Shown here: positions 18,274-61,030 of the stretch, piece by piece
Layout: each line of letters starts with the position of its first letter
Numbering within the stretch: position 1 is the stretch's first letter
Assembly: GCA_030998225.1 (NCBI GenBank)
Contig: JAPYXD010000403.1
Location: 6,138,001 to 6,202,000 of the forward strand
Source: Diplolepis rosae
Lineage: Eukaryota > Arthropoda > Insecta > Hymenoptera > Diplolepididae
Length of the DNA stretch: 64,000 nucleotides
Direction of reading: 5' to 3'
Program-made: the position numbers and the translations under genes
The notes under the pieces: generated by a model
What the model saw: only the letters and a program-made list of their open reading frames with translations
Databases searched by the model: none
Told to the model about the DNA's origin: nothing

Positions 18274-19444
18274 TGTAACGCGCAGGTCGAATTGAGCGCG
18301 AAAAAGTTAAATTTTCCAACACGTAAACTGGGATTCGTTCCACAATGAAGGACTAGGAAGCCCAACTCTCACGAATGAACCGATTTGTTTATTGAATTCT
18401 ATTAATAAAGGAAAAGACAAAGAATATTTGAAAGTTAGCGTAAAATAAAACACAATGATTACGATGGAAATAAAAACAGAACCTAAAAGGTAATTTATTA
18501 ACACACACGTATTAATTTTTAATAATCAATTACAATAAAGAATAATTTTGTAAATAACAGTTATAAACTCGCTCGAGCGAGGACGAAAAATGTCAAGACA
18601 CGAGCTTCTCGTCCTCTGTCAAAATTAAATCTGACTCCTGGAAAGTATTTCGTCGTTGATGTCTTGATGAATCGGCGCGCGCAAGACCCAGGATCCTTGC
18701 CTGTTTGGTCCATCCTTCCATTCCCGCGAGAACATCTGTTTTTCGTCACATTCATCCCCGCTAGTCGAAACTCAGTGCATCCACAAAAGAATAGTATGAC
18801 CCTGTACTCGAACCGGCCCATCTTGACATTCTATACAATTCGAAGCCCTTCGCAGGCGAGCGAAGAGGTTAGCCCTGAACACGTGTTACGGTTTGTGTAA
18901 ACAAATCTTTGCTGCAGTCTCTTGCACATCATAAACGCGACCCATCCCACGGTTAAAGCGCTTACAAAATGCATAGTATGGCAATACATTTCCTCTCCAC
19001 TTAAGGACCTTTCTATGAAAAGTCTGTAAGTGGAGAAAGCTTTTAAACAATTTTCATGATTCTGGACTCAAGATGTTCTTATAAAAAAAACTAAGAAATT
19101 CTTATTTGCCTTTTGTAGATTCAGCAAGTTTCGACCCATACCTAAATTTAAAACACATTGTTAAAGTAAACATGTAAAAAAGTTAAAGAAAATCAATATT
19201 CATGCATATGAACTAAATTTATAAAATACATTTAAACAAGTAAGTTATGTTTAGAAAGAGATCATCATTCTTATTGATTTTTACTTTATCGACTTGCCAA
19301 TGTCGCCAGCCAATTCTCTCTCTACGTTATTCTGATCTCTATGAATCAATTAATCTGCGTTTGAGTTAAACCGCGCGTTTTCGAGGTGAGCATGCGTGCT
19401 CTAGTGTGTAAAACGAACAGCAGAAGGATTCTGCGCTCGTTACA
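18274..19444 (-). mobile_element. 3' LTR of the minus-strand Ty3/Gypsy element (complete, 1171 bp)
   Basis: Runs from TGTAACGCGCAGG to GCTCGTTACA on the plus strand, with TG...CA ends and a TGTAACG/CGTTACA terminal inverted repeat. Its first 638 bp recur at 26917-27555 with, by eye, only one A-run length difference. The inner edge abuts the polypurine tract. The open frames inside are identical in both LTR copies but look like chance. Confidence 0.9.
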
Positions 19445-20350: not shown

Positions 20351-23300
20351 TTAAATATATCGTAAGAAAGCATGTTTAACTCTGTTGACGTGAACAATTT
20401 TTCTTACCGTTGGATTAATTTGTATTTCAATATTTAATTCATCGATCACTCTAATAATTTTACAGGGTCCTGAGTAGTGATCTTCGAGTTTATTACCCCT
20501 AACATCAACTAAAAGGTAGACGTATTGATTTGGTTCAAAATTTCGTTCGTTAATTTTCCTATCGTAATATTTTTTGCAACGTCTTTTAGCAGCCTCTAGA
20601 CGAGCGAAAGCAAGCGATTCTGTTTCTACGATTCTATTTAAAATTTCATCTACAAAGTCTACATATGTTCTAGGTACATTCTCGTCTGCGAATTCTGTGG
20701 GGAATCGAACCTTCCTTCCAAAAACTATTTCATGAGGAGTCATGCCAGTTGATTCGTGCACCGAGGTATTAAAGGAAAAGAGAGCATAAGGAAGCCACTG
20801 GTCCCAGTTATTTTTCTCACAATAATTACGTAAGTATTCTACGAAAGTGTGATGACTTCGTTCTAAAGCTCCTAGAGATTGTGGGTGATAAGCACTAGAT
20901 CGATACTGGCGAATTTTAAATAACGCGGCAAAACTGTTCATAATTTGGCTCATAAATTGTGAACCTTGATCTGTTTGTATAGCTTCAGGACATCCAAAGA
21001 TACAAATAAGATTTTCTGCTAGGGCTACCGCAATATGAGGTGCATCGATTTTTGAAAGAGGAATGGCACCTGAGTACTTACTCAGACAATCTTGCCAGGT
21101 AAGCATATAAAGGTTTCCCGATTCCGTAAGAGGTAGAGGGCCCACTAAATCAATCTGTATTTTTTCAAAGGATCTACTGGGGGTATCTGTGATACGCATT
21201 GGCATTTTTGTTTTGATTCTTGTTAGTTTTCGTTTCTGACACGTTTCGCATGTTTTTACATATTCCCTGATTTCATTTCGCATGCCTTTCCAATAGAATC
21301 TTTCTCGAACTCTAGCTAATGTTTTGTTTTCACCTTTATGCCCTCCTACCGTCGAGTCATGAGATTCCCGAATAATTTCTGAACGTTGCTCCTCTGCCGG
21401 AATCTGTACTTCGCCCGAGCAAACTGTAATTTTAAAATTTCCTTTTCCAAAATGTGTTCTGAAAATTCGCTCTATTATCGACCATGACATTTTATCGAAT
21501 CCGTTTCCCTCTCGCGATATGCTAATTGATTCAATGCTAGCTGCTTCCATAGCCTCCCTTAATGTACTAATAGCCTTTTCAATATTTTTTGCAAATACTT
21601 TCGCGTCAAACGTTTCTTTAATGAATAAGTTGTAAACAAAATGTTTTCCATGCATTGTAGATGAAACATAACCTAATTCAGCATTAATTTCTTTCAGGTC
21701 GGAAATTTTGATAATGGAATTCTCGCTGAGCTCTCTTCCTACGGGGGTAGTTAGAACTCCATCGCACGAGACAAAATTAACAATGTTATCATCACGCATC
21801 CACACTTTGTCTCTACTTAATTGAAATAATGGTGTAAGTATACGATTGCCCTGCTTTCCTTCTGCGATCAAAATTGATGTTGCTTCTGCAAATGCGTTTG
21901 TATTCGATCCAATTTGTTCACAATCTTTGTCAACATCACATTCATTCAATAAAACATCTCCCCACACACCAACAAATTCTTTCAACTCATTTTCACTGAA
22001 GTCAACCTCACTCATTTTCTCGTGATCATCAGTTACATCATAATCGTCAACTCTATTCTTTTCTCGACCTTCAACTTCATCACAACTGTTCAGCCTTTCT
22101 AAGTGACATGCAGGACCACTATTAACCCCATTTGCAGGAGGATTGGTACCTTCTTTTGGTAAACGATCCTCAGAGGAAACGACCCCTATCGTAGGGCATC
22201 TTTCCTCCTTCTTATAGGGGATGACCCCGAGTGTCGACAACCCCTCATCAATTGAAGGCATCTCGCACCGGCAGTCCTTCCCCCGAGAGTACAACCCCGC
22301 GTGTCGACAACCCTTCACCCTGTGAAGGCATCTCGCACCGGCCGTTCCCTCTCCTGGAGTAACCCCGCATGATGACAGCCCCTCACCCAGTGAGGGCACC
22401 TCGATCACCGGCTGTTCTCCACTTCCAGAGGAGGGCCAATTCTTTCCTCCTCCTCTGGTAGCCCATGAGTTGCTAGCTTTCCTCTTCCTATCAATCCTTA
22501 CATCTCTGATTATACATTTCTTTTCCTCATGGCCAGACCGCAGCTGGTACGTGCCATTCGTCCTGCTCTCGCAACCCATGCTCGACTCCACCACTCGATC
22601 GTTGAGTTGGGCGACTCTGGGCATGACACAAGAGCTCGACCGGACTTTCGCACTACCTTGCTTATCTAAACTAGTTTGCCAGGGTGTCACTTGATCAGGA
22701 ATGGGCTGGGGTGTTCGGCTTACTGTTTGAGTTTGATGATCACTAAAAAAAATCACTTCTCTTTCGTCATCATCACCATCCGTCTCAGAATCATCGCGAT
22801 TTTTACCATTTGACCCTTCATTCACATTCTCAAAAATATTCACAAGATCATTGCTTTCATCATGATTTCTAACAACAGTACTGAAAACTCTTTCTATAGG
22901 ATACTCATGATAGAGGACATTGCTCCCACAGAAGCGACCACCGTCGGAATTGCCAACCTTTGCAACATCCTCAGGGTTGTCCCCCTCACTCGCTTTCCTT
23001 AGTCTAGTTTTATCATTTAAATTATTACACTCTACAGGATTTCGAGACAACGCATCTGCATTAGCATTCACCCTACCTGGTTTAAACGCGATCTTATAAT
23101 CGTACTCCTGCAATTTAATTTTCCAACGAGCTAGACGAGAACCCATCGTGGGATCTTTTAATTGATCTAACCAAGTTAAAGAACGATGATCGGTAATCAA
23201 AGTAAACTTCTGCCCATACACATATGGTCGAAAATGCTTTACGGCAAATATAATCGCTAAAAGTTCCTTTTCTGTTGTGTTGTAGTTTACTTCTGCTTGA

Positions 23301-24754
23301 CTTAATGTACGCGACGCGAACGCAATTGGCAAGTCTTTCCCGACAGGGCCCTGACTGAGAATGGCTCCTAAAGCATAATTAGAGGCATCAGTAGTAATTA
23401 TAAAAGGTTTCGTGAAGTCAGGATATTGTAAGATAGGCTTTGAACAAAGAACGTTCTTTAACTTATCAAAAGCCCTCTGTGAAACTTCGGACCAAACGAA
23501 TGGTACATTTTTCTTTAAGAGTAAAGTCATGGGTTTTGCGATGGACGCAAATTCGGGTATAAAACGGCGGTAGTATCCAGCTAATCCCAGAAATTGTTTC
23601 ACGTTTTTGCGACCTTTTGGACAAGAAAATTTACTCACGGCTTCTATTTTTCCCGGATCAGGTTTTACGCCTTCCTCAGAAATTACGTGTCCCAAATACC
23701 CTATTTCTTTACAGAGAAACCTACATTTATCCGGCTGAAGCACAAGTGCTGCCGTTTTCAAGCGTCCCAAGAGATTTTCCAGTTTTTCATTATGCTCTTT
23801 TAATGATTTAGCATAGATGACTATGTCATCCATATATACAAACATTTCTATGCCTTGTAAACCCGTAAGTACGCGATCCATAAGTCTCTGAAACGTTGCA
23901 GGCGCATTCTTTAAACCGAAGGGCATTCGATTGAACTCGTAGTGACCGAAGGGTGTAGAAAAGGCCGTTTTATGCCTATCCGCAGGCTCGACTTCAATCT
24001 GATGAAAACCAGAGGCGAGATCGAGCACCGTGAAGTATTTGGCACCTCCCAGCTGATCCAAAATATCCGTGATATTTGGCAGAGGGTAAGCATCTCCAAC
24101 GGTCTTTTCGTTAAGAGCACGGTAATCTATGACCATTCTCCATCTTTTATTTCCCTTCGAGTCAGGCTTTTTCGGGACAACCCAGACCGGAGAATTGTAT
24201 GGTGAATTAGAAGTCGATATTGCATTGTAACCTTCTAAATTTGACGTTTCCTTGCTAATTACTTCCTTATGTATAATGGGATAGCGATAATTTCCCTTGT
24301 TAACAGGATCTTTATCAATGGTATTTATATTGTGTTTTAGAACGTTTGTACAAGTTAATTTATCACCCGGCAGAAAAAATTGATAGGTAAATTTTTCTAT
24401 ATTTTTTAAAAGACTACTTTTTTCTTCTGAATTTAGATTTGTTAAGTCAAGGGTACCTAGTAAGTCTTTAAGCCTTTTACTTTTTATGATTTCAGATTCT
24501 TTATCGACTACTATTCTTTTTACAGATCTAGGAGCTTGATTGAGGAATTTTACTTCTTCCAAAGTTACAGGAGAAACTGAGATTTCTATATCCTTAGTGC
24601 AAACATTGATGCAATAAACGCGAATCTTTCCTTCAGTGACGGTAACTAAGGTTTCGCCTAAATATACGCCTGGTCCCGCTGGTATCAGTGGTAAATAACC
24701 TTCGCTAATTTCGGCGTTTGTAACAGGCAAGGTAACTAATTGTTTAGTTCTTGA
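20351..24754 (-). CDS. pol: Ty3/Gypsy Pol: RT, RNase H, linker, macro domain, integrase
   Basis: Residues are counted from the TTG at 24730-24728. RT carries VIDYRALNEKT, LDLASGFHQIEVEP, MPFGLKNAPATFQRLMD and the YMDD box near 298. RNase H follows (TTDASNYALGAIL near 445, TEKELLA, TDHRSLTWL). Residues about 600-960 are a low-complexity linker holding a ~70-bp DNA repeat. A macro domain spans about 979-1107. Integrase has an HHCC zinc finger (HDSTVGGHKG, CETCQ) and DDE acids in QIDLVGPLP, TDQGSQF and GALERSHH. The frame is continuous with protease except for one TAA (24757-24755) at a position where element 2 has a Pro codon. No other break was seen, so the element is nearly intact. Confidence 0.93.
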   Translation of the reverse strand, partial: SRTKQLVTLPVTNAEISEGYLPLIPAGPGVYLGETLVTVTEGKIRVYCINVCTKDIEISVSPVTLEEVKFLNQAPRSVKRIVVDKESEIIKSKRLKDLLGTLDLTNLNSEEKSSLLKNIEKFTYQFFLPGDKLTCTNVLKHNINTIDKDPVNKGNYRYPIIHKEVISKETSNLEGYNAISTSNSPYNSPVWVVPKKPDSKGNKRWRMVIDYRALNEKTVGDAYPLPNITDILDQLGGAKYFTVLDLASGFHQIEVEPADRHKTAFSTPFGHYEFNRMPFGLKNAPATFQRLMDRVLTGLQGIEMFVYMDDIVIYAKSLKEHNEKLENLLGRLKTAALVLQPDKCRFLCKEIGYLGHVISEEGVKPDPGKIEAVSKFSCPKGRKNVKQFLGLAGYYRRFIPEFASIAKPMTLLLKKNVPFVWSEVSQRAFDKLKNVLCSKPILQYPDFTKPFIITTDASNYALGAILSQGPVGKDLPIAFASRTLSQAEVNYNTTEKELLAIIFAVKHFRPYVYGQKFTLITDHRSLTWLDQLKDPTMGSRLARWKIKLQEYDYKIAFKPGRVNANADALSRNPVECNNLNDKTRLRKASEGDNPEDVAKVGNSDGGRFCGSNVLYHEYPIERVFSTVVRNHDESNDLVNIFENVNEGSNGKNRDDSETDGDDDEREVIFFSDHQTQTVSRTPQPIPDQVTPWQTSLDKQGSAKVRSSSCVMPRVAQLNDRVVESSMGCESRTNGTYQLRSGHEEKKCIIRDVRIDRKRKASNSWATRGGGKNWPSSGSGEQPVIEVPSLGEGLSSCGVTPGEGTAGARCLHRVKGCRHAGLYSRGKDCRCEMPSIDEGLSTLGVIPYKKEERCPTIGVVSSEDRLPKEGTNPPANGVNSGPACHLERLNSCDEVEGREKNRVDDYDVTDDHEKMSEVDFSENELKEFVGVWGDVLLNECDVDKDCEQIGSNTNAFAEATSILIAEGKQGNRILTPLFQLSRDKVWMRDDNIVNFVSCDGVLTTPVGRELSENSIIKISDLKEINAELGYVSSTMHGKHFVYNLFIKETFDAKVFAKNIEKAISTLREAMEAASIESISISREGNGFDKMSWSIIERIFRTHFGKGNFKITVCSGEVQIPAEEQRSEIIRESHDSTVGGHKGENKTLARVRERFYWKGMRNEIREYVKTCETCQKRKLTRIKTKMPMRITDTPSRSFEKIQIDLVGPLPLTESGNLYMLTWQDCLSKYSGAIPLSKIDAPHIAVALAENLICIFGCPEAIQTDQGSQFMSQIMNSFAALFKIRQYRSSAYHPQSLGALERSHHTFVEYLRNYCEKNNWDQWLPYALFSFNTSVHESTGMTPHEIVFGRKVRFPTEFADENVPRTYVDFVDEILNRIVETESLAFARLEAAKRRCKKYYDRKINERNFEPNQYVYLLVDVRGNKLEDHYSGPCKIIRVIDELNIEIQINPTVRKIVHVNRVKHAFLRYI
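21407..21790 (-). other. TARG1-like macro domain inside Gypsy Pol
   Basis: Located between RNase H and integrase, Pol residues about 979-1108. From NIVNFVSCDGVLTTPVGREL through GKHFVYNLFIKE to ISREGNGFDKMSW and FKITVCSG, the segment aligns, with very few gaps, to the compact macro domain of human TARG1 (OARD1, C6orf130), recalled from knowledge. TARG1 Lys84 and Asp125 are the known catalytic pair for removing ADP-ribose from glutamate. They match Lys1038 (FIKE) and Asp1079 (GNGFDK), with the same 41-residue spacing. The glycine loop is degenerate (TTPVG). Binding and hydrolase activity are inferred, not shown. Confidence 0.8.
22185..22440 (-). repeat. ~70-bp tandem repeat inside the Pol linker
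   Basis: On the plus strand the phrase GTGTCGACAACCC and its flanks recur at 22231, 22301 and, diverged, 22369, with traces upstream near 22185. The periods (70 and 68 bp) are not multiples of three, so copies 1 and 3 share a frame (PSIDEGLS and PSLGEGLS) while copy 2 is read in another frame. All copies remain open. The encoded linker is unlikely to be under tight sequence constraint. Confidence 0.7.
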
Positions 24755-25228
24755 TTATAAATGTAAGATTGTACGTTTAGGTGGAGTGGTAAAAGGAAAA
24801 TTGCCTAATGCATGTTTTATTGTTTTTGTCTGCAGATCAATTATTGAGTTGGCCAGGAAAGGCATTCCTAACATCCCATCGCAATTTATTGGAAAATTAT
24901 TCGGAACTATTTGAAACAAACAGGACACTCCGTTGATATCAAGATTTACTTCTCCTGCAGTTTTCACCCCTTCCTGTACAATACCAAATAAATGAAATTT
25001 AACTTGAAAATTTATGTCTGTATCGGGTTTGATCTTCTTGCGTTTAATCAAATTTAATTCCGCGCCTGTGTCTACTACAAATATTCCGCTATTATTTTTT
25101 ATGTGTTTACTTTTTAATTCGACGTTAGGTGACTGAGCCTTTCCTTCAGTACTGATGCTTAAAACGACCCGTCGGACGAGTGTTTCATCTGGAAAAAGTC
25201 CGCCGTCGCACCACTCCGACGAACTCAC
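24755..25228 (-). CDS. Gypsy protease (Pol N-terminus, -1 frame relative to gag)
   Basis: Retropepsin-type aspartic protease. The active-site motif FVVDTGAELNLIK is followed by the second-half motif CDGMLGMPFLA. The frame opens upstream of the gag stop codon and is entered by -1 frameshifting. The GTG at 25228 is just a codon in the -1 frame, not a start. The segment ends with a TAA in frame with RT (HL-stop-SRTKQLV). In the second Gypsy element of this window the matching position reads YLPARTRKLV, so the stop is probably a private mutation of this copy. Confidence 0.88.
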   Translation of the reverse strand: MSSSEWCDGGLFPDETLVRRVVLSISTEGKAQSPNVELKSKHIKNNSGIFVVDTGAELNLIKRKKIKPDTDINFQVKFHLFGIVQEGVKTAGEVNLDINGVSCLFQIVPNNFPINCDGMLGMPFLANSIIDLQTKTIKHALGNFPFTTPPKRTILHL

Positions 25229-25243
25229 TTCTCGTTTAAATTT
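25165..25243 (-). promoter_or_regulatory. -1 ribosomal frameshift signal at the gag/protease junction
   Basis: On the coding strand AAATTTAAAC occupies 25243-25234 and holds two overlapping heptamers, A AAT TTA and T TTA AAC, both in the gag frame. The gag TGA follows at 25227. Shifting back one base at TTTAAAC enters the protease frame exactly. Nine nucleotides downstream a stem of ten pairs can form: GTTCGTCGGA with TCCGACGGGT (three G-U pairs), with arms at 25224-25215 and 25176-25167. TTTAAAC is a classic efficient slippery sequence. Confidence 0.8.
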
Positions 25244-26463
25244 TTCTGTTTGTCCTGACGATTATTTGAAATTTTATTGCGACGTTTATAACAGTCATCG
25301 TAGTTATGTCCCGAAATTTTGCAGTAGCTACAGGTTAACTTTACCCTTTCCCTTTCACCACTTCCTCCCGCACAATCTCGAGCATAATGACCCGGCTTTT
25401 TACAATTATAACATTCTCCAGGCCTGGCTCTTGATTTATTGCATTCACGTGCAAAGTGTCCGGGTTGATTACAAATGTGACAGTTTTTCACTGCACCGTT
25501 CAATACTCGCGCGCATCCCATTGCAAAGTGCCCTACTTCACCGCATTTATGACACGTAATTTCAGTTTGAGGACCTATATTCGTTCTCTCGCTATACCTG
25601 TCACTACTATTTCCCTTCCCCCTTCCTCTGAGACTAGACCCTCTACTAACTCCTGTTTCGAACTTCCTAACTCGTGCGTTGCTATGATATGGTCGGAATC
25701 TATTCTGGGTATTTCCATAAACTTTGTTCTGTCCTAATTTTTCCGCATATCCCTTCCCTTCATTTTCCGATGAAATTTCTCTTCGACTTAACCCACTTTC
25801 GAATCCTACTTCCCATTCTGCTGCTTTTGCTAAATTTATTGATTCCTGAAGAGATTTTGGCCTGTCTACTCTAACTCGCCAGATTAAATCTCTTTTTAGA
25901 CCAATTATAAAATTATCATTGGCAGTGTCACGCGCAGATTTAACTAAATGCTGGGCCGCTCCTTTTGAATTCTTGTCTTCGATTAATTCAATCAAATTCG
26001 CAAGAATTTGACTGACTCTCGACCCATACTGCTGTACCGTTTCATCCACTCGTTGCGCGACGGTCGCAAGTGCGCTGTTCAGTTGACTGAGGCTCCGGTG
26101 TTCGGTAAAAGTTTCCTTTAGATGCTTTAATAAATCTTCCAGATTATTTAAATCACGATCTTGCAAAGAATTAAAAGCATTTCCTATTACTCTAGATCGT
26201 ATCATTAAAAAGAGATATCGGCGATCTTTTGCTGCAATTGAATCGCGCGCGAATATGCAGTCATTTATGAATCGACCGACAGGCATGTTTTCACCATCGA
26301 AATGTTTTGGAATAAATTCCAAGGCAGCCCTAAAAGGTATTGGGTTTTCTGGCTCTCTATCAGGAAGAGAAAATATTCCTGAGCTACTTGCGCCTACTAA
26401 ACTGTAGTCGGCACAACTCGAAGCGCGAGCGGGAACAAGTTCTACAGGGGCTTCGTAAGAATG
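25225..26463 (-). CDS. gag: Gypsy Gag (capsid and four zinc knuckles)
   Basis: The open frame begins after a TAA at 26466-26464 and runs to the TGA at 25227-25225. It contains no ATG before the internal MPVGRF (about 26286), so the true start is unclear; it may lie in a mutated or spliced leader. A capsid-like helical region includes LKETFTEHRSLSQLNSALAT and YGSRVSQILANLIELI. Four CCHC knuckles follow: CHKCGEVGHFAMGC, CHICNQPGHFAREC, CYNCKKPGHYARDC and CSYCKISGHNYDDC. The C-terminus overlaps the protease frame at the slippery site. Gag of the second Gypsy element is related but more decayed. Confidence 0.9.
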   Translation of the reverse strand, partial: HSYEAPVELVPARASSCADYSLVGASSSGIFSLPDREPENPIPFRAALEFIPKHFDGENMPVGRFINDCIFARDSIAAKDRRYLFLMIRSRVIGNAFNSLQDRDLNNLEDLLKHLKETFTEHRSLSQLNSALATVAQRVDETVQQYGSRVSQILANLIELIEDKNSKGAAQHLVKSARDTANDNFIIGLKRDLIWRVRVDRPKSLQESINLAKAAEWEVGFESGLSRREISSENEGKGYAEKLGQNKVYGNTQNRFRPYHSNARVRKFETGVSRGSSLRGRGKGNSSDRYSERTNIGPQTEITCHKCGEVGHFAMGCARVLNGAVKNCHICNQPGHFARECNKSRARPGECYNCKKPGHYARDCAGGSGERERVKLTCSYCKISGHNYDDCYKRRNKISNNRQDKQKNLNEK

Positions 26464-26884: not shown

Positions 26885-26903
26885 AATCCCACTTCTGACA
26901 CCA
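26885..26903 (-). promoter_or_regulatory. Primer-binding site, tRNA-Leu
   Basis: The coding strand reads TGGTGTCAGAAGTGGGATT, 13 nt inside the 5' LTR. This is complementary to the 3' end of an insect tRNA-Leu, which as I recall ends ATCCCACTTCTGACACCA. Several insect Gypsy lineages use tRNA-Leu primers. Confidence 0.82.
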
Positions 26904-26916
26904 AAAAAGTTTTGTC

Positions 26917-27555
26917 TGTAACGCGCAGGTCGAATTGAGCGCGAAAAAAGTTAAATTTTCCAACACGTAAACTGGGATTCGTTCCACAATGAAGGACTAG
27001 GAAGCCCAACTCTCACGAATGAACCGATTTGTTTATTGAATTCTATTAATAAAGGAAAAGACAAAGAATATTTGAAAGTTAGCGTAAAATAAAACACAAT
27101 GATTACGATGGAAATAAAAACAGAACCTAAAAGGTAATTTATTAACACACACGTATTAATTTTTAATAATCAATTACAATAAAGAATAATTTTGTAAATA
27201 ACAGTTATAAACTCGCTCGAGCGAGGACGAAAAATGTCAAGACACGAGCTTCTCGTCCTCTGTCAAAATTAAATCTGACTCCTGGAAAGTATTTCGTCGT
27301 TGATGTCTTGATGAATCGGCGCGCGCAAGACCCAGGATCCTTGCCTGTTTGGTCCATCCTTCCATTCCCGCGAGAACATCTGTTTTTCGTCACATTCATC
27401 CCCGCTAGTCGAAACTCAGTGCATCCACAAAAGAATAGTATGACCCTGTACTCGAACCGGCCCATCTTGACATTCTATACAATTCGAAGCCCTTCGCAGG
27501 CGAGCGAAGAGGTTAGCCCTGAACACGTGTTACGGTTTGTGTAAACAAATCTTTG
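26917..27555 (-). mobile_element. 5' LTR of the Gypsy element, truncated
   Basis: Identical by eye to the first 638 bp of the 3' LTR apart from one extra A. The outer ~530 bp, which would hold the U3 promoter end, are missing. The break is at 27555, where the sequence passes directly into an inverted mariner copy, sharing TTG with it. No target duplication can be checked. Near-identity of the LTRs suggests a recent insertion. Confidence 0.88.
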
Positions 27556-28434
27556 AAATCATAGAAAAACTTCTTTTTCCAGAGACTGAGTTTTGGCGCG
27601 ACAACTACCTTAATACGGCCGCAACGAAATTCAGTGAAACACTTATGAACCATGCCATGTGATGGAGCAGACTCCTTATAATATTTTGCGAGCTTTTCTT
27701 TAGTTTCTTTGATTGATTTTCCTCGAAGAAAATAATGTTTATTAAGCACGCGAAACTCGCTTTTTTCCATGGTTTTGTTTTAACAATGAAAAACTAAATT
27801 CAACTGGATGTAAAACAAATTCTAACCAACTGACTTGAAACTTTGTATATGGCGTGTTCCATGGCGTTCCATGCATTATTTAAAAATTTATGGGATAAAC
27901 GAAGCAAAAAAATATTTTTATTCTTTTTCAATTATTTAAAAACTGAAACTAGGAAAAATTCTGAAAAAATTACACAAACGTATCATTAGATGGCCGATGT
28001 AGCAGTATTTTTGGGGAAAATTTTTACTCCAAATTTAATGATAAAAAAAATGTTTTCTTCAAACAAATTGATTTTTTGAAAAAACGCCATCTTTGAAAAA
28101 TCTGAAAAAATTCATAGTGATAGCCGCAAGTATTACGCAAATTTTAGGTATATAATTAAGGTGCGCACTCAAAAATTGTGCGAAATATGAATTTTTTTGT
28201 AAAGTGATGCGCGTGGAATCACGATCTTCGATCGACGGTGTCGGGCGCAAGTTCCACTAATGTTCTATTACTATCTGCTTTTTCGAGAACGTTACTATCA
28301 AAAAGTGATGGGAAGTGATTATTAATTGTTTAATTATCGCTTTATACTCATAACATATGAATAATGTAATGAGTTTTATAATTATACATAAATTATCAAA
28401 AACATAATTTTTTTTATTATCACGAAAATAAATT
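27556..28434 (-). mobile_element. Inverted copy of a mariner 5' half (left arm of an 880-bp palindrome)
   Basis: On the minus strand at 27770 a mariner transposase N-terminus begins MEKSEFRVLNKHYFLRGKSI and continues KETKEKL, GMVHKCFTEFRCGR. This helix-turn-helix is typical of irritans-like mariners. The arm also carries 60 bp of the TTAA MITE that interrupts the forward copy. The duplication therefore postdates that MITE insertion. The arm pairs with 29064-29943. Confidence 0.85.
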
Positions 28435-29063
28435 AGCTGGTAAAAAATCCACGAGAGTTTATTTTCAAAGAGCAGTTGACATGATTCGACAAAAAAGGAA
28501 ACATTGTTGTAATCCATACAAAAACAAAAACCGTAAGTGAATATTACGTGATTTTTCACCCTCGATACAAATAGAAATATAGTGAAATCATCACGTGCTG
28601 ATCTATAAATAATTTATCAAGCCTCAACTTAAAAATCATTTTCCTCTTAATAGATTATACTCGCAGATCCAAATGAAAGCAGTTTAAGGGCATTCCCAGA
28701 GCATTTTCTCAATAAATTCAAAGATGTCAAAAAAAATGCTCTCCTTTGCAACACATACAGGATAAGAGTTATAAATGATGAAGTTTTAGAAGAAGGATAG
28801 AAAATAATAAGATTTGTTCCTCCTAGCATTTATAATTTCTTTCTTAATTGCTAAAATTACTAGAAATCGGCGAATGACTCGCAAAATCTTTCTTCTTCAC
28901 GGCCTCCAGGTACCATCCGGTTCCAAAAATCTCTCGAAGACAATAATATTGACGAAAAATCAGAGTCCTTTCGATTTATAAAATTCTCATCAACGTACAA
29001 TTCAAAAAATCACTCTTCATACTTTCTGGCGTAAAAAATTTGTTCGTAGATTTTTTACGAACA
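28435..29063. other. Spacer of the mariner palindrome, with an exon-like open stretch
   Basis: Unique sequence between the two arms. After an acceptor-like TTTTCCTCTTAATAG near 28654 an open stretch on the plus strand encodes ADPNESSLRAFPEHFLNKFK and then KNALLCNTYRIRVINDE, ending at a TAG near 28800. I do not recognise the protein. A hairpin, TTTGTTCGTA/TACGAACAAA, sits at 29039-29064, exactly at the edge of the right arm. Confidence 0.4.
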
Positions 29064-29883
29064 AATTTATTTTCATGATTATAAAAAAAATTATTTTTTT
29101 GATAATTTATGTATAATCATAAAACTCATTACATTATTCATATTTTATGAGTATAAAGCGATAATTAAACAATTAATAATCACTTCCCATCACTTTTTGA
29201 TAGTAACGTTCTCGAAAAAGCAGATAGTAATAGAACATTAGTGGAACTTGCGCCCGACACCGTCGATCGAAGATCGTGATTCCACGCGCATCACTTTACA
29301 AAAAAATTCATATTTCGCACAATTTTTGAGTGCGCACCTTAATTATATACCTAAAATTTGCGTAATACTTGCGGCTATCACTATGAATTTTTTCAGATTT
29401 TTCAAAGATGGCGTTTTTTCAAAAATCAATTTGTTTGAAGAAAACATTTTTTTTATCATTAAATTTGGAGTAAAAATTTTCCCCAAAAATACTGCTACAT
29501 CGGCCATCTAATGATACGTTTGTGTAATTTTTTCAGAATTTTTCCTAGTTTCAGTTTTTAAATAATTGAAAAAGAATAAAAATATTTTTTTGCTTCGTTT
29601 ATCCCATAAATTTTTAAATAATGCATGGAACGCCATGGAACACGCCATATACAAAGTTTCAAGTCAGTTGGTTAGAATTTGTTTTACATCCAGTTGAATT
29701 TAGTTTTTCATTGTTAAAACAAAACCATGGAAAAAAGCGAGTTTCGCGTGCTTAATAAACATTATTTTCTTCGAGGAAAATCAATCAAAGAAACTAAAGA
29801 AAAGCTCGCAAAATATTATAAGGAGTCTGCTCCATCACATGGCATGGTTCATAAGTGTTTCACTGAATTTCGTTGCGGCCGTA
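29064..29883 (+). mobile_element. Forward mariner copy, 5' part (right arm of the palindrome)
   Basis: Carries the mariner 5' flank and the transposase N-terminus from ATG 29727 to the residues FRCGR at 29880. There the TTAA MITE enters. The transposase resumes after the MITE at 30558 with SDAERPER. Confidence 0.85.
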
Positions 29884-29887
29884 TTAA

Positions 29888-30553
29888 GGTAGTTGTCGCG
29901 CCAAAACTCAGTCTCTGGAAAAAGAAGTTTTTCTATGATTTCAAGACTGGTAATTATATCATCAGCCGTGTAATATGTAAGGGAAGACACTCTTTTTAAT
30001 AAAAAAAATTTAAAAATTACGAAAAATAATATTTTAATAATGTTTTTTGTAATAGGATATTTCCTTATTATCGCTCCATACCAAATTTTCAAAAATGGTG
30101 CGATTCTGATAAATCTTGAATCATTTTTTTAGGAAAAGGATTCTCTACAACTTTACCGTTTCCGATTTTTGAAAATGAATCAATTATTTTCAAATTCAGC
30201 AATTTGTTTATAAAAATTTTGTTTTGGAAAATTGTTTTTTAATGATTTCAACCATTAAAGAATGTATTTTCAAAAATCGGAAACGTTAAAGTTGTAGAGA
30301 ATCCTTTTCCTAAAAGAATGATTCATGATTTATCAGAATATCACCATTTTTGAAAATTTGGTATGGAGCGATAATAAGGAAATATCCTATTACAAAAAAC
30401 ATTATTAAAATATTATTTTTCATAATTTTAAAATTTTTTTATCAAAATGAGTGTCTAACCTTACATATGACACGGCTGATGATATAATTACCAGTCTTGA
30501 AATCATAGAAAGACTTCTTTTTCCAGAGACTGATTTTTGGCGCAACAACTACC
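29888..30553. mobile_element. Palindromic TTAA-flanked MITE (piggyBac-like) inside mariner
   Basis: TTAA at 29884-29887 and 30554-30557 flank a 666-bp near-palindrome. The ends start GGTAGTTGT(C/T)GCGCCAAAA, and most of each half is complementary to the other. If the element and one TTAA are removed, the mariner reading CGT ATT AAC ACA AGC GAT GCA is continuous (RINTSDAE), which confirms the target site. TTAA specificity points to the piggyBac superfamily. Confidence 0.82.
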
Positions 30554-30557
30554 TTAA

Positions 30558-30729
30558 CACAAGCGATGCAGAGCGTCCTGAGCGTATGGCACATTTTACA
30601 TGCATGTTTCAATGTAATTCACAGGAATTTTTGCGACGTGATGTAACTGTTGATGAAATGTGGATTCATTATTATACCCCAGAAACAAAAAATCAGTCGA
30701 AATGTGGACTGGGCCTGCCGAATCTGCAC
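30558..30729 (+). pseudogene. Mariner transposase, central fragment
   Basis: Resumes after the TTAA MITE with SDAERPER, then a deletion. It then gives SQEFLRRDVTVDEMWIHYYT and PETKNQS, which includes the first catalytic Asp (VDEMWIH). The frame breaks after this and is interrupted by the P-like element at 30730. Confidence 0.82.
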
Positions 30730-56521: not shown

Positions 56522-58065
56522 ATGTCAAAGTCAGCGACATCAGGTTCATCGTTCGAACAAATAATTTTAGAAAACGATCATGATTATGCGTCACCACCTG
56601 ATGGTTTCGCATCGTGTTCTAAAATTTTAAATACAGAAATAAGTAAAAATGCGTATGAAAATTTTACAAAACAAAGTGACCAAACTAATTCCAAAGATGA
56701 TGATACATTAGTAACCGAAACAAATAAATTACTTTTGGAATTGAAAAAACAGATGGCTGATCTGCGTCATAACCAGGGTTCATCCGCAGCTGAGTGGGTG
56801 GATAATAACAAAAATATGCGAGAAATTGAACAAAATTCTGATATAAATATTTCTCCCCTCCCAGAAGTTAACAACATAACTATAATTCTATGTAGTTATT
56901 TTAAAGCTTTAAGAGCTTTTATTGATATAATTCCGATTTTTAATGGCAGAAATATTTCCATTCAAACCTTCGCACGAGAATGCAGAATAACAATTGAAAG
57001 TATCGATGAGGGATTTTATTCACTGTTTCTTAGATTATTACGTTCAAAAATTGTAGGGGAAGCAGATATATATATATTAAAAATAGGCATTTTAATTCTC
57101 TCGATGAATTATTGTCAATTTTAGATAAAGCTTTCGGCACTCCAAAAACTCTTTTTCAAGTGGAGTCTGAAATAGCTCATGTGAAACAAAATAAGGGTGA
57201 AGATATTTTATCATATGGTGCTAGAGTTACAGAATTATTTTACAAAATGACGGAAATAATTGAACAGCAATCTTCACCTGAGCTAGCGACAGAAAAAATT
57301 AAAGAGTATAACCTTGACGTAGCCACTTGTTTTCGTTTAGGTTTGCAAGGCGAATTAGAAGCCAGAGTCAGACAAAAGAATCCTACTTCATTACAAGATG
57401 CGATAAATGCTGCAATTGATGCAGAACGCGATTTAAACCGCAGGAAAAGATTATATGGAAACTTGTCGGAACCAAGTACATCCATCGCGGAAAACGTAGT
57501 ATTTTCAGGGGTAGATTCCGCAAGTAGAGAACCTCATAACAAATATCATAAGTCGAATCATAGATCAATAAATCATATCCGAGAAGAGCATTCGTCACAA
57601 TCGTCAGATAAAGATACTATTTGTTACAGTTGCGGTAAGGGAGGTCATACGTCTCGCAGTTGCGGAAATAAATCAAACGATAAAATTAATAATTTCGTTT
57701 GCTACACATGCGGGGAAGATGGACATATTTCCAGAAATCGCGCTCATAGAAATATAAATTTCATGGGTAAAATTAGAAACACATTGGAATGCTCATATTG
57801 TAATAAAAAGGGGCATAATCTTGAAAAATGTTTTAAACATAAAATTGACGAAGCAGAAAGAAGGGTTAAGAAAGCAGAGGGAACATTAGAACAAATGAAA
57901 AGGGCTGCATCTGTTTCTTCTGTCTCTTCTGTATCAGGGCATTTAAACTCCGGACTTGTTCGTCGTCAAGGCGCAACGATGAGCAACAACAATGCGACAG
58001 AGCGCCAATTAAACGAGTTGCACTTGCAGTCAGGAAAGGGGGGATCTCACAGAATCCAACAATAG
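56522..58065 (+). pseudogene. gag: Second Gypsy element, Gag (frameshifted)
   Basis: Likely starts at MSKSATSGSSFEQ. The frame is lost at 57066-57078, where an (AT)n run is one AT unit out of phase, and resumes with SILDKAFGTPKTLFQVESE. Capsid features resemble the first Gypsy Gag. Three CCHC knuckles follow: CYSCGKGGHTSRSC, CYTCGEDGHISRNR (final Cys replaced by Arg) and CSYCNKKGHNLEKC. The stop is TAG at 58063-58065. Decay indicates an older insertion than the first element. Confidence 0.85.
58035..58044 (+). promoter_or_regulatory. Putative -1 frameshift site of the second Gypsy element
   Basis: AAAGGGGGGA holds overlapping heptamers A AAG GGG and G GGG GGA in the gag frame, 18 nt before the gag TAG. 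A -1 shift enters the protease frame (GISQNPTIEV, then LLIDTGCELNLL). The position parallels the site in the first element. Confidence 0.6.
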
Positions 58066-60015
58066 AAGTACTCAATGAAAAATTTCATAAGGGTAAAGCT
58101 AAATTATTGATTGATACGGGTTGCGAATTAAACCTCCTAAAAGAATCGTGTATTCAGGAGAAAATTCGTCGTGACGAAACATGTATATATTACCTAACTG
58201 GAATTGGAAAAGGAATGCAAAAACTCACGGATTTGTAATATTAAAAATTTTTGATGCCGAAGTCGAATTTCATTTAGTTCATGATAAATTTTCTGTTTCA
58301 TCTTGTGGAATACTTGGTATGAATTTTTTGAGAACGAATTTTGCAACCATGTCATTTTCTGATGAAAGAATTACTTTAAAATTGAAGCCTATAAATTGTA
58401 ATCAACCAAAAATAATTTATTTACCTGCACGAACGCGAAAATTAGTTTCCTTGCAAATCGAAAACCAAGATTTAAAAGAAGGTTATTTGGAGAGAATCAA
58501 TACGGGCGAAGGGGTTTTTATTGGTGAAAATCTTGTGAAAAATAATGACGGAATGGTTCAAGTTTATGCTATTAACTCCACTTTACATGATATAGAACTA
58601 ATAATCCCTCCAATAAAACTTTTTGAATACGAAACTACTATTCATAATATACAGACATTAAGTATAGAAGAAAGTTTACAAGATGAAAAATTTGAAGAAC
58701 ATCCAGACAGACTAACTAGAATAATGAATTTGCTCAATTTTCAAGACCTAAATGACGAAGAAATAAATAGTTTACTTGGTCCCTTCTCTGAGTTTTCTTA
58801 TCGTTTCTTTTTAGATGGTGATAAATTAGGATCTACTAACGTTATAATGCATAAAATTCACACGACTGACGAAACTCCTACCTTTCAAAGACAGTACCGC
58901 CCAGCTGAAATTCACAACGAAGAAATATTGAAACAGACTGATAAATTGCTAGAATCTAATTTTATTGAAGACTCAGATTCACCGTTTAATTCGCCTGTAT
59001 GGATTGTTCCTAAAAAGCCTGACGAAAAGGGAAATAAACTTTGGCGTATGGTTATAGATTATCGACAACTTAACGAGAAAACAATCAGCGATGCATACCC
59101 ACTTCCGAATATAACTCATATTTTAGATCAGTTAGGGGGTGCTCAATATTTTTCAACTCTTGATCTCGCTTCTGGTTTTCATCAGGTTAAAATGCACCCG
59201 GAATCCAAAGCGAAAACTGCATTCTCTACACCCTTTGGACATTATCATTTCAATCGAATGCCATTTGGTCTTAAAAATGCGCCTGCTACTTTTCAAAGAC
59301 TCATGGATAAAGTTTTATCTGGCCTTCAGGGGGTAGAAATTTTCGTTTATATGGATGATATCGTTATTTACGCTCATTCACTAGAAGAACATACACGAAA
59401 ATTAAAGAACCTTTTACAGAGATTAGAAAGAGCAAATTTGACCCTTCAACCCGAAAAATGTAAATTTTTGAAGAAAGAAGTAGCTTATTTAGGGCACGTT
59501 ATCTCTCGTGAAGGAGTTAAACCCGATCCTAAAAAGGTTGAAGCGGTACGTAAATTTCCTCGTCCTAGAAATTCTAAAAATGTTAAACAATTCTTAGGTC
59601 TTGCAGGATACTATCGACGATTTATCCCTAAATTTTCTATTATAGCAAAACCTTTATCTCACTTATTGAAAAAGGGAGTAAGATTTGCATGGATATCTGG
59701 ACAACAGGAAGCTTTCGATAAGTTGAAGAACATTATGTGTTCATTTCCACTTTTACAATATCCAGATTTTAAAAGACCTTTTACAGTTTCTACTGACGCA
59801 TCAAATTACGGTATAGGGGGTGTACTCAGTCAAAAACCATTAAACTTGAAAGGAGATCTTCCTATTGCATACGCTTCCAGAACTTTGACTGACACTGAAA
59901 TTAATTACTCAACAATAGAAAAAGAATTACTTGCTATTTTGTTTTGTGTAGAAACTTTTCGACCTTATCTTTACGGTAGACGTTTTAAACTTGAGACTGA
60001 TCACAGACCGCTAGA
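58036..60015 (+). pseudogene. pol: Second Gypsy element, Pol: protease, RT and part of RNase H, truncated
   Basis: Protease has the active site LLIDTGCELNLL (Cys after DTG) and CGILGMNFL. A one-base shift in the A-run near 58221 separates its two halves. From there the frame is open through RT: VIDYRQLNEKT, LDLASGFHQVKM, MPFGLKNAPATFQRLMD and the YMDD box near 59350. RNase H starts with STDASNYGIGGVLSQ and IEKELLAILF. It ends abruptly at TDHRPL (60012), where unrelated tandem repeats begin. Integrase and any macro-domain region are absent, so it cannot tell whether the macro domain is ancestral. Confidence 0.9.
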
Positions 60016-61030
60016 GCTACGTAAAGTTGACAGAACCAAAACATCGAATCATGATGTCTCTTATATCATAATTAAGGGCTCATTTAGGGCTAATTTAATG
60101 CCCCATTGCCGAATTTTCGGCTCTTCATTTTTTTTAAAATATGCATGGTTCTGCCAGCTTTACTTCAAGCCAGCAGCACCACTCCAGAAATAAGTTTAAA
60201 AATGTATATATCAAATTCCCCCTGTCGCAGGAATTTTCGGCTCATTTCCGGCTCCAGGTATCCCATTGAACCATTGTCCTACCTTCACAAATAAAAAAGG
60301 GCCACAAAGGACGAAGGGACAAAATATTAAATTTTGCTTTTTCATCATTAAATCAATACAGGCCAATTTAGGGCTCACTTCCTATCCAAATATAAATTTT
60401 AGTACTTTGCCCTTTTTATAAAATATGCAGAGGTGCTGCCAACTTTACATCAAGTTGGCAGCGCCACCCACGTACACACCGAAAAATTGCTTTTTCCAAA
60501 ATCTACTCCTGCAGGAATTTTCGGCTCATTTTCGGCTCAAGATAACCCTTTGAACCATTGTCCTACCTTCAAAATTAAAAAAGGGCAGCTAAGGGCAGAT
60601 GGCCATAACATTAATTTTTTATTTTTCTTCTTCACATCACTCTAACTAGTAGCATTTCTTGTTCATATTCTGGCTAAATATAAATTTTTACCAGAGCCCT
60701 TTTTAAAAAACACGCAGGAGGTTGTCTAACTCTGAATAATATCAGCAGGACCATCCAGAAACATTTCTCGAAAATTGCTTTTTCCAAAATCTACTCCTGC
60801 AGGAATTTTCGGCTCATTTTCGGCTCAAGATAACCCTTTGAACCATTGTCCTACCTTCAAAATTAAAAAAGGGCAGCTAAGGGCAGAGGGCCATAACATT
60901 AATTTTCTATTTTTCTTCTTCACATCAATCTAAGTAGTTGCATTTCTTGTTCATATTCTGGCTAAATATAAATTTCTACCAGAGCCCTTTTTAAAAAACA
61001 CGCAGGAGGTTGTCTAACTCTAAATATAAT
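60016..61030. repeat. ~290-bp tandem repeat array with GGCTCATTTTCGGCTC core
   Basis: Three to four direct units share GAATTTTCGGCTCATTTTCG, 'cattgtcctacctt' and 'agagcccttttt' blocks; the GGCTC core recurs near 60237, 60520 and 60809. One unit (60430-60470) folds as GGTGCTGCCAACTT / AAGTTGGCAGCGCC around TACATC. The last two units are almost identical over about 250 bp, so the array has expanded recently. A related but diverged motif is in the element at 62743. Confidence 0.75.

Follow-up and report, generated by a model that had tools for sequence, protein, structure and literature searches.

A Ty3/Gypsy retrotransposon clade with a TARG1-related macro domain between RNase H and integrase of its Pol proteins

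The window analysed here, a 64-kb stretch of Diplolepis rosae contig JAPYXD010000403.1, contains a minus-strand LTR retrotransposon with LTRs, Gag, protease and Pol. Its 5' LTR (26917..27555) and 3' LTR (18274..18911) form a pair on the transcribed minus strand and are 99.84% identical over 639 columns, with one 1-nt gap and zero substitutions. No clean target-site duplication was found at the ends of the element, which is flanked by AAATA and AAATC. Just inside the 5' LTR, TGGTGTCAGAAGTGGGAT at 26886-26903 (minus strand) looks like a primer-binding site and may resemble the end of a tRNA-Leu. The Gag ORF (25225..26322, minus strand) carries three CCHC zinc knuckles (PF00098, E 7.9e-14, three stretches) and is followed by a protease ORF (24755..25228, minus strand) containing VDTGAELN, and by a Pol ORF of 1459 aa (20351..24730, minus strand) with the order reverse transcriptase, RNase H, linker, macro domain and integrase. 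The LTRs, Gag, protease and the order of reverse transcriptase, RNase H and integrase identify the element as Ty3/Gypsy, with the protease being a weak match to the Pfam gag-asp_proteas model (E 0.19, below the cut-off). A single in-frame stop parts the protease ORF from Pol, both lying in a common reading frame, and in the database relative P0001 the protease is joined to reverse transcriptase in one frame of 1625 aa. Given the near-identical LTRs and the in-frame stop before Pol, the window copy is young but interrupted. A reading made earlier from the sequence alone had described the macro domain as kept open in a young copy; this is accurate for the domain and the age of the copy, but not for its coding region as a whole, and the genome holds copies with a longer open frame.

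The window contains several other repeats. A tandem repeat with a unit of ~70 nt and copies about 80% alike lies in the Pol linker (22224-22417). A long inverted repeat (27553-28454 and 29044-29944), with arms of about 902 nt that are 98.9% alike, begins at the outer boundary of that element's 5' LTR, and another palindromic stretch occupies 29881-30560. A second, related Gypsy element lies on the plus strand at 57112-60193, with Gag at 57112-58065 and an ORF at 58181-60193 encoding reverse transcriptase and RNase H, the latter ORF being 71% identical to the first element. The macro domain and integrase of the first element have no match elsewhere in the 64-kb window.

Within Pol, all on the minus strand, reverse transcriptase spans residues 186-350 (23681..24175; PF00078, E 7.5e-40) and RNase H residues 413-543 (23102..23494; PF17919, E 3.7e-37 and PF17917, E 2.8e-39). 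A fast-evolving linker follows (residues 544-957, 21860..23101), and then the TARG1-related macro domain at about residues 958-1108 (21407..21859), whose core of about residues 981-1105 (21416-21790) aligns with TARG1. The H2C2 zinc-binding domain of integrase (residues 1113-1168, 21227..21394; PF17921, E 3.3e-23) begins 5 to 8 residues past the end of the macro domain and precedes the integrase core (rve, residues 1185-1283, 20882..21178; PF00665, E 7.1e-12). The Pfam positions of RNase H, H2C2 and rve thus place the segment between RNase H and integrase, as the sequence-only reading had proposed for a TARG1-type macro domain; the three motifs that it quoted are present in the Pol ORF, and its span of 21407-21850 corresponds to residues 961-1108.

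The segment has the macro fold and is homologous to TARG1. The single window segment matched TARG1 in the PDB with E = 0.0018, and a profile built from 15 genomic copies did so with E = 1.8e-11 over about 125 residues. This 15-row profile scored TARG1 at 46.9 bits, with 8.6 as the highest shuffle score (914 of 1000 received a score), and a separate 36-row profile of clade members that lack the phosphate loop scored it at 45.2 bits, with shuffles reaching at most 5.9 (828 of 1000 scored). Structure searches agreed, within the limits of a weak predicted model: the first eight Foldseek matches were all TARG1, and macro domains, recognised by title or known identity, made up about 43 of the 50 VIA-align rows. 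The AlphaFold model, made from a 12-row alignment, had a mean pLDDT of 48, with values below 50 over residues 1-70. Pfam Macro (PF01661) matched neither the window segment nor any of the 15 members, the one point that could favour a chance or convergent resemblance of an ordinary Gypsy linker; with two profiles scoring TARG1 at 45-47 bits, all scored shuffles below 9, and the PDB and structure matches, we reject this explanation at the sequence level as extremely improbable. The NCBIfam model for DarG (NF048014) matched 7 of the 15 members (best E 0.00085), in each case below its cut-off, and the window segment reached 13.9 bits against the curated cut-off of 250. For the host itself, PF01661 gave three genome matches at two loci, which by eye are MacroD-like and GDAP2-like.

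In the alignment, TARG1 Ser35, Lys84, Gly121, Gly123, Asp125 and Trp129 correspond to S988, K1038, G1075, G1077, D1079 and W1083 of Pol. K1038 (codon 21617..21619, minus strand) and D1079, the last residue of the phosphate-loop motif GNGFD (residues 1075-1079, 21494..21508, minus strand), stand opposite the catalytic pair of TARG1 without a gap and 41 residues apart, exactly as first noticed. Among 68 genomic copies, K1038, N1076 and W1083 are present in 68, D1079 in 67 and S988 in 62, the remaining six having Thr, so that the counterparts of both catalytic residues are retained in the window's lineage. These copies, which include the window's own, were picked by hand from 150 scored matches among 2734 genome candidates, top rows first and skipping some short or stop-bearing rows; they comprise 59 distinct sequences over the aligned region and extend down to about 46% identity, and the Lys and Asp counts exclude the sizeable group of lowest-ranked matches with about 44-47% identity. 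Stops were seen by eye in the matched stretch of 29 of the 150 and occur in the aligned region of 7 of the 68. Other parts of the TARG1 active site are not conserved. The published pattern TKx(30,35)Px[IL]GxGxD (PMC6397177) is not matched by the window sequence, which departs from it at T, P and [IL] in the alignment (T83 is replaced by I and P118 by S), nor by P0001, which is identical to the window in the macro region; a regular-expression search of 124 database proteins found it solely in P0078 and P0081. The loop-1 GAG of TARG1 (residues 41-43) is replaced by T994-T995-P996, with T995 in 68 of 68 copies. C1104 in the last strand, where TARG1 has Tyr in the alignment, does not vary among the window's own 14 lineages or among the 43 representatives of the rest of the clade.

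Nei-Gojobori estimates between subfamilies of the same genome, where pairs are non-independent and some dS values are near saturation, gave median dN/dS values for the macro domain of 0.083 over 9 pairs in one comparison and 0.146 over 15 pairs in another, and of 0.064 for more distant subfamilies with 2 usable of 9 pairs. The linker, readable in 28 of the 68 copies, had values of 0.50 (9 pairs) and 0.44 (12 usable of 15 pairs) over residues 560-940. RNase H gave 0.025 (3 usable of 7 pairs) and 0.016 (9 pairs), and integrase gave 0.048 (9 pairs) and 0.030 (15 pairs). With a ratio of about 0.1, far below the value of about 0.5 for the neighbouring linker, the open domain is maintained by selection, although the core enzymes are under stricter constraint. 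Conservation is also uneven within the domain. For 14 stop-free lineages less than 90% identical to each other, the pocket loops had a mean conservation of 0.82 compared to 0.66 for its other positions (permutation p 0.0001), and GNG and D were invariant in 14 of 14. In the rest of the clade, represented by 43 sequences, the difference was 0.48 against 0.42 (p 0.07). Conservation of the pocket could have a structural cause. Between L002, the window's copy, and L016, dS was 0.10 in integrase and 0.50 in the macro domain, and between L002 and L009 it was 1.20 and 0.57, respectively, which may be signs of recombination between subfamilies.

Other Gypsy Pols with the order RNase H, macro domain and integrase were sought with an HMM of the window's lineage among 107 related Pols, which had been gathered by integrase similarity and length, so that members without the domain may be under-sampled. 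The domain was found in 55 of them (P0001-P0005 and P0023-P0072), which are all of the listed Pols whose integrase is at least 45% identical to that of the window; the match in P0046 is short and partial (E 2e-4). In the remaining 52, the HMM detected none between RNase H and integrase. On a quick integrase tree of 108 rows, the 55 Pols and the window form one clade with an SH-aLRT value of 99, and a careful tree of 100 rows, from which eight long-branch rows had been removed, recovered the same clade with UFBoot/SH-aLRT values of 99/98; of 200 bootstrap trees, 98% contained it. Clade members have 242-574 residues between the RNase H end and the zinc-binding motif, with both marks located by pattern, versus 76-169 in eight outsiders; P0081 was excluded from this comparison, its RNase H mark being spurious. 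Organism names are attached to 9 of the 55 Pols and belong to Trichogramma, Bombus, Cataglyphis and Mischocyttarus, all of them Hymenoptera. Among viral contigs, 35 stretches matched a pattern and none of them encodes a relative. The sequence-only reading had attributed the capture to this particular retrotransposon; the sampled set points instead to one event at the base of the whole clade. P0078 (2553 aa) and P0081 (2495 aa) are Gypsy polyproteins in a separate branch of the integrase trees and carry a C-terminal macro domain after integrase, at residues 2394-2490 (Pfam Macro E 6.2e-5, above the cut-off) and 2355-2432 (E 3.4e-4, just below it), respectively. The simplest account of their domain would be an independent second acquisition in a different part of the Gypsy tree.

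Across the clade, the fold has been more durable than the pocket. Of 53 usable members, 43 retain Lys, 37 Asp, 17 the GxG loop and 12 all three, with the Asp counts in decayed members being approximate because these sequences align uncertainly where the loop has been lost; these counts omit P0046 and P0064, whose macro match is partial. Lys, Asp and GxG are kept together in 6 of 6 nearest relatives versus 6 of 47 others, and the most parsimonious history on the integrase tree involves 10 changes at Lys, 12 at Asp and 4 at the GxG loop. In 21 members, Lys and Asp are present although the phosphate loop is gone, so other reasons keep the pair in place somewhere in the clade. Substitutions of Lys and Asp in relatives, which had been named beforehand as a ground for refuting the sequence-only reading, do occur at the level of the clade, but the pair is maintained in the 68 copies of the window's lineage. 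Random drift of the dyad was rejected for these copies and partly accepted for the wider clade. The macro fold thus extends across the whole clade, the ADP-ribose pocket does not, and the Lys/Asp pair by itself says little in favour of hydrolase activity. The earlier suggestion of an ADP-ribosyl hydrolase is right about the presence of the pair, but the activity itself becomes doubtful, with an active site that has often been lost outside the window's lineage.

Overall, we consider it likely that a single capture gave rise to a selected accessory module beside integrase, whose fold has outlasted the pocket in other lineages. Within the sampled set, the ancestor of this Ty3/Gypsy clade, whose named members are exclusively hymenopteran, acquired a TARG1-type macro domain in a single event, at a position between RNase H and integrase, and the domain has been inherited together with Pol since then. 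Purifying selection in the window's lineage and the presence of the domain in all 55 sampled members support the view that the elements carrying it still need it. Its role is most likely that of an accessory module on the N-terminal side of integrase, where it would bind a partner or ligand belonging to either the reverse-transcription or the pre-integration complex, and it may become a free product after Pol processing. Because the pocket face is the most conserved part of the domain, ADP-ribose or an ADP-ribosylated partner would most likely be the ligand in the window's lineage, where the domain has probably retained binding of ADP-ribose or a similar compound. Elsewhere in the clade the pocket has decayed in most lineages, with losses of the loop and of the dyad seen in the alignments, and the persisting fold would have a non-catalytic role there.

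The sequence of the window's domain is compatible with an eraser, a reader or a scaffold. The domain might be a purely structural pseudo-enzyme in all lineages, the window's included, acting as a spacer or as an N-terminal extension of integrase. The retention of the fold with a GxG loop in only 17 of 53 members argues for such a role, as does the precedent of an inactive dUTPase-related segment of BIV that occupies the same Pol position and is critical for replication (PMC4261571). With a pocket face in the window's lineage that is significantly more conserved than the rest of the domain, and GNG and D unchanged in every one of its 14 lineages, we regard this as a serious possibility that nevertheless falls somewhat short of being probable. 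Alternatively, the window's lineage could encode an active ADP-ribosyl hydrolase in which Lys1038 attacks the distal ribose with the assistance of Asp1079, and would clear ADP-ribose from host proteins or from the ends of nucleic acids around reverse transcription or integration. The near-complete retention of the dyad in copies down to about 46% identity, the conserved GxG, S988 and W1083 and the significant conservation of the pocket are consistent with this, and TARG1 uses such a dyad and, like DarG, reverses thymidine ADP-ribosylation (PMC9411070). The departures from the TARG1 pattern at T83 and P118, the change of GAG to TTP in loop 1 and the 21 relatives with Lys and Asp but without the phosphate loop make an active hydrolase rather doubtful. 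An extended version, in which a working TARG1-like eraser, joined to integrase or released beside it, would take ADP-ribose off host proteins or off the cDNA ends of the element itself and so counter PARP-based host control, with the chemistry lost and the fold retained in sister lineages, appears unlikely; if it were true, the sister lineages would form a natural series from enzyme to scaffold. The proximity to the integrase zinc finger and the conserved pocket in the window's lineage would also suit a reader of ADP-ribose, rather than an eraser, that guides the integration complex towards chromatin ADP-ribosylated at sites of DNA damage. Relatives with decayed pockets have long open Pol frames (1283 aa in P0045), which suggest recent activity and make ADP-ribose targeting as a general property of the clade unlikely, and we judge a reader function to be quite improbable.

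Captured accessory domains in LTR elements, such as the lentiviral dUTPases, reveal obstacles that these elements meet in the host. A TARG1-derived domain that defines a clade of Gypsy Pols would point to ADP-ribosylation as an obstacle or cue in insects. As members with intact and with decayed pockets exist side by side in the clade, the question of chemistry versus fold is directly testable. Among the matches listed, as judged from titles and abstract openings and with subscription journals mostly uncovered, no paper described a macro domain in Pol of Gypsy or other LTR retrotransposons, which does not prove that there is none; the sole relevant paper on macro domains in LTR retrotransposons or retroviruses among these matches was PMC4977317.

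Among the nearest known relatives of the domain is human TARG1/OARD1 (C6orf130) of the ALC1-like macro clade, with homology over about 125 residues and counterparts of Lys84, Asp125, the GxG loop, Ser35 and Trp129 in the window's lineage. Unlike TARG1, the domain is embedded in Pol and lacks Thr83, Pro118 and the loop-1 GAG. DarG, the second family matched, has a macro domain that acts as an antitoxin and DNA ADP-ribosyl glycohydrolase, with the Lys of the dyad present and the Asp absent (PMC9411070), whereas the window domain has both residues. P0078 and P0081 likewise combine a Gypsy-type Pol with a TARG1-related domain, but theirs follows integrase and conforms to the full TARG1 pattern. 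Epsilon-like endogenous retroviruses of ray-finned fish are also retroelements with macro domains, but carry them as additional ORFs (Basta et al. 2009, as cited in PMC4977317). The dUTPase of non-primate lentiviruses is likewise a captured domain of nucleotide metabolism, about 130 residues long and situated between RNase H and integrase, although it has another fold and enzymatic function and occurs in vertebrate retroviruses rather than in Gypsy elements. In BIV, a 74-residue remnant of it has no detectable dUTPase activity and is still critical for replication (PMC4261571, PMC4531489). The lentiviral dUTPase and its BIV remnant are a close parallel to the macro domain in both position and fate.
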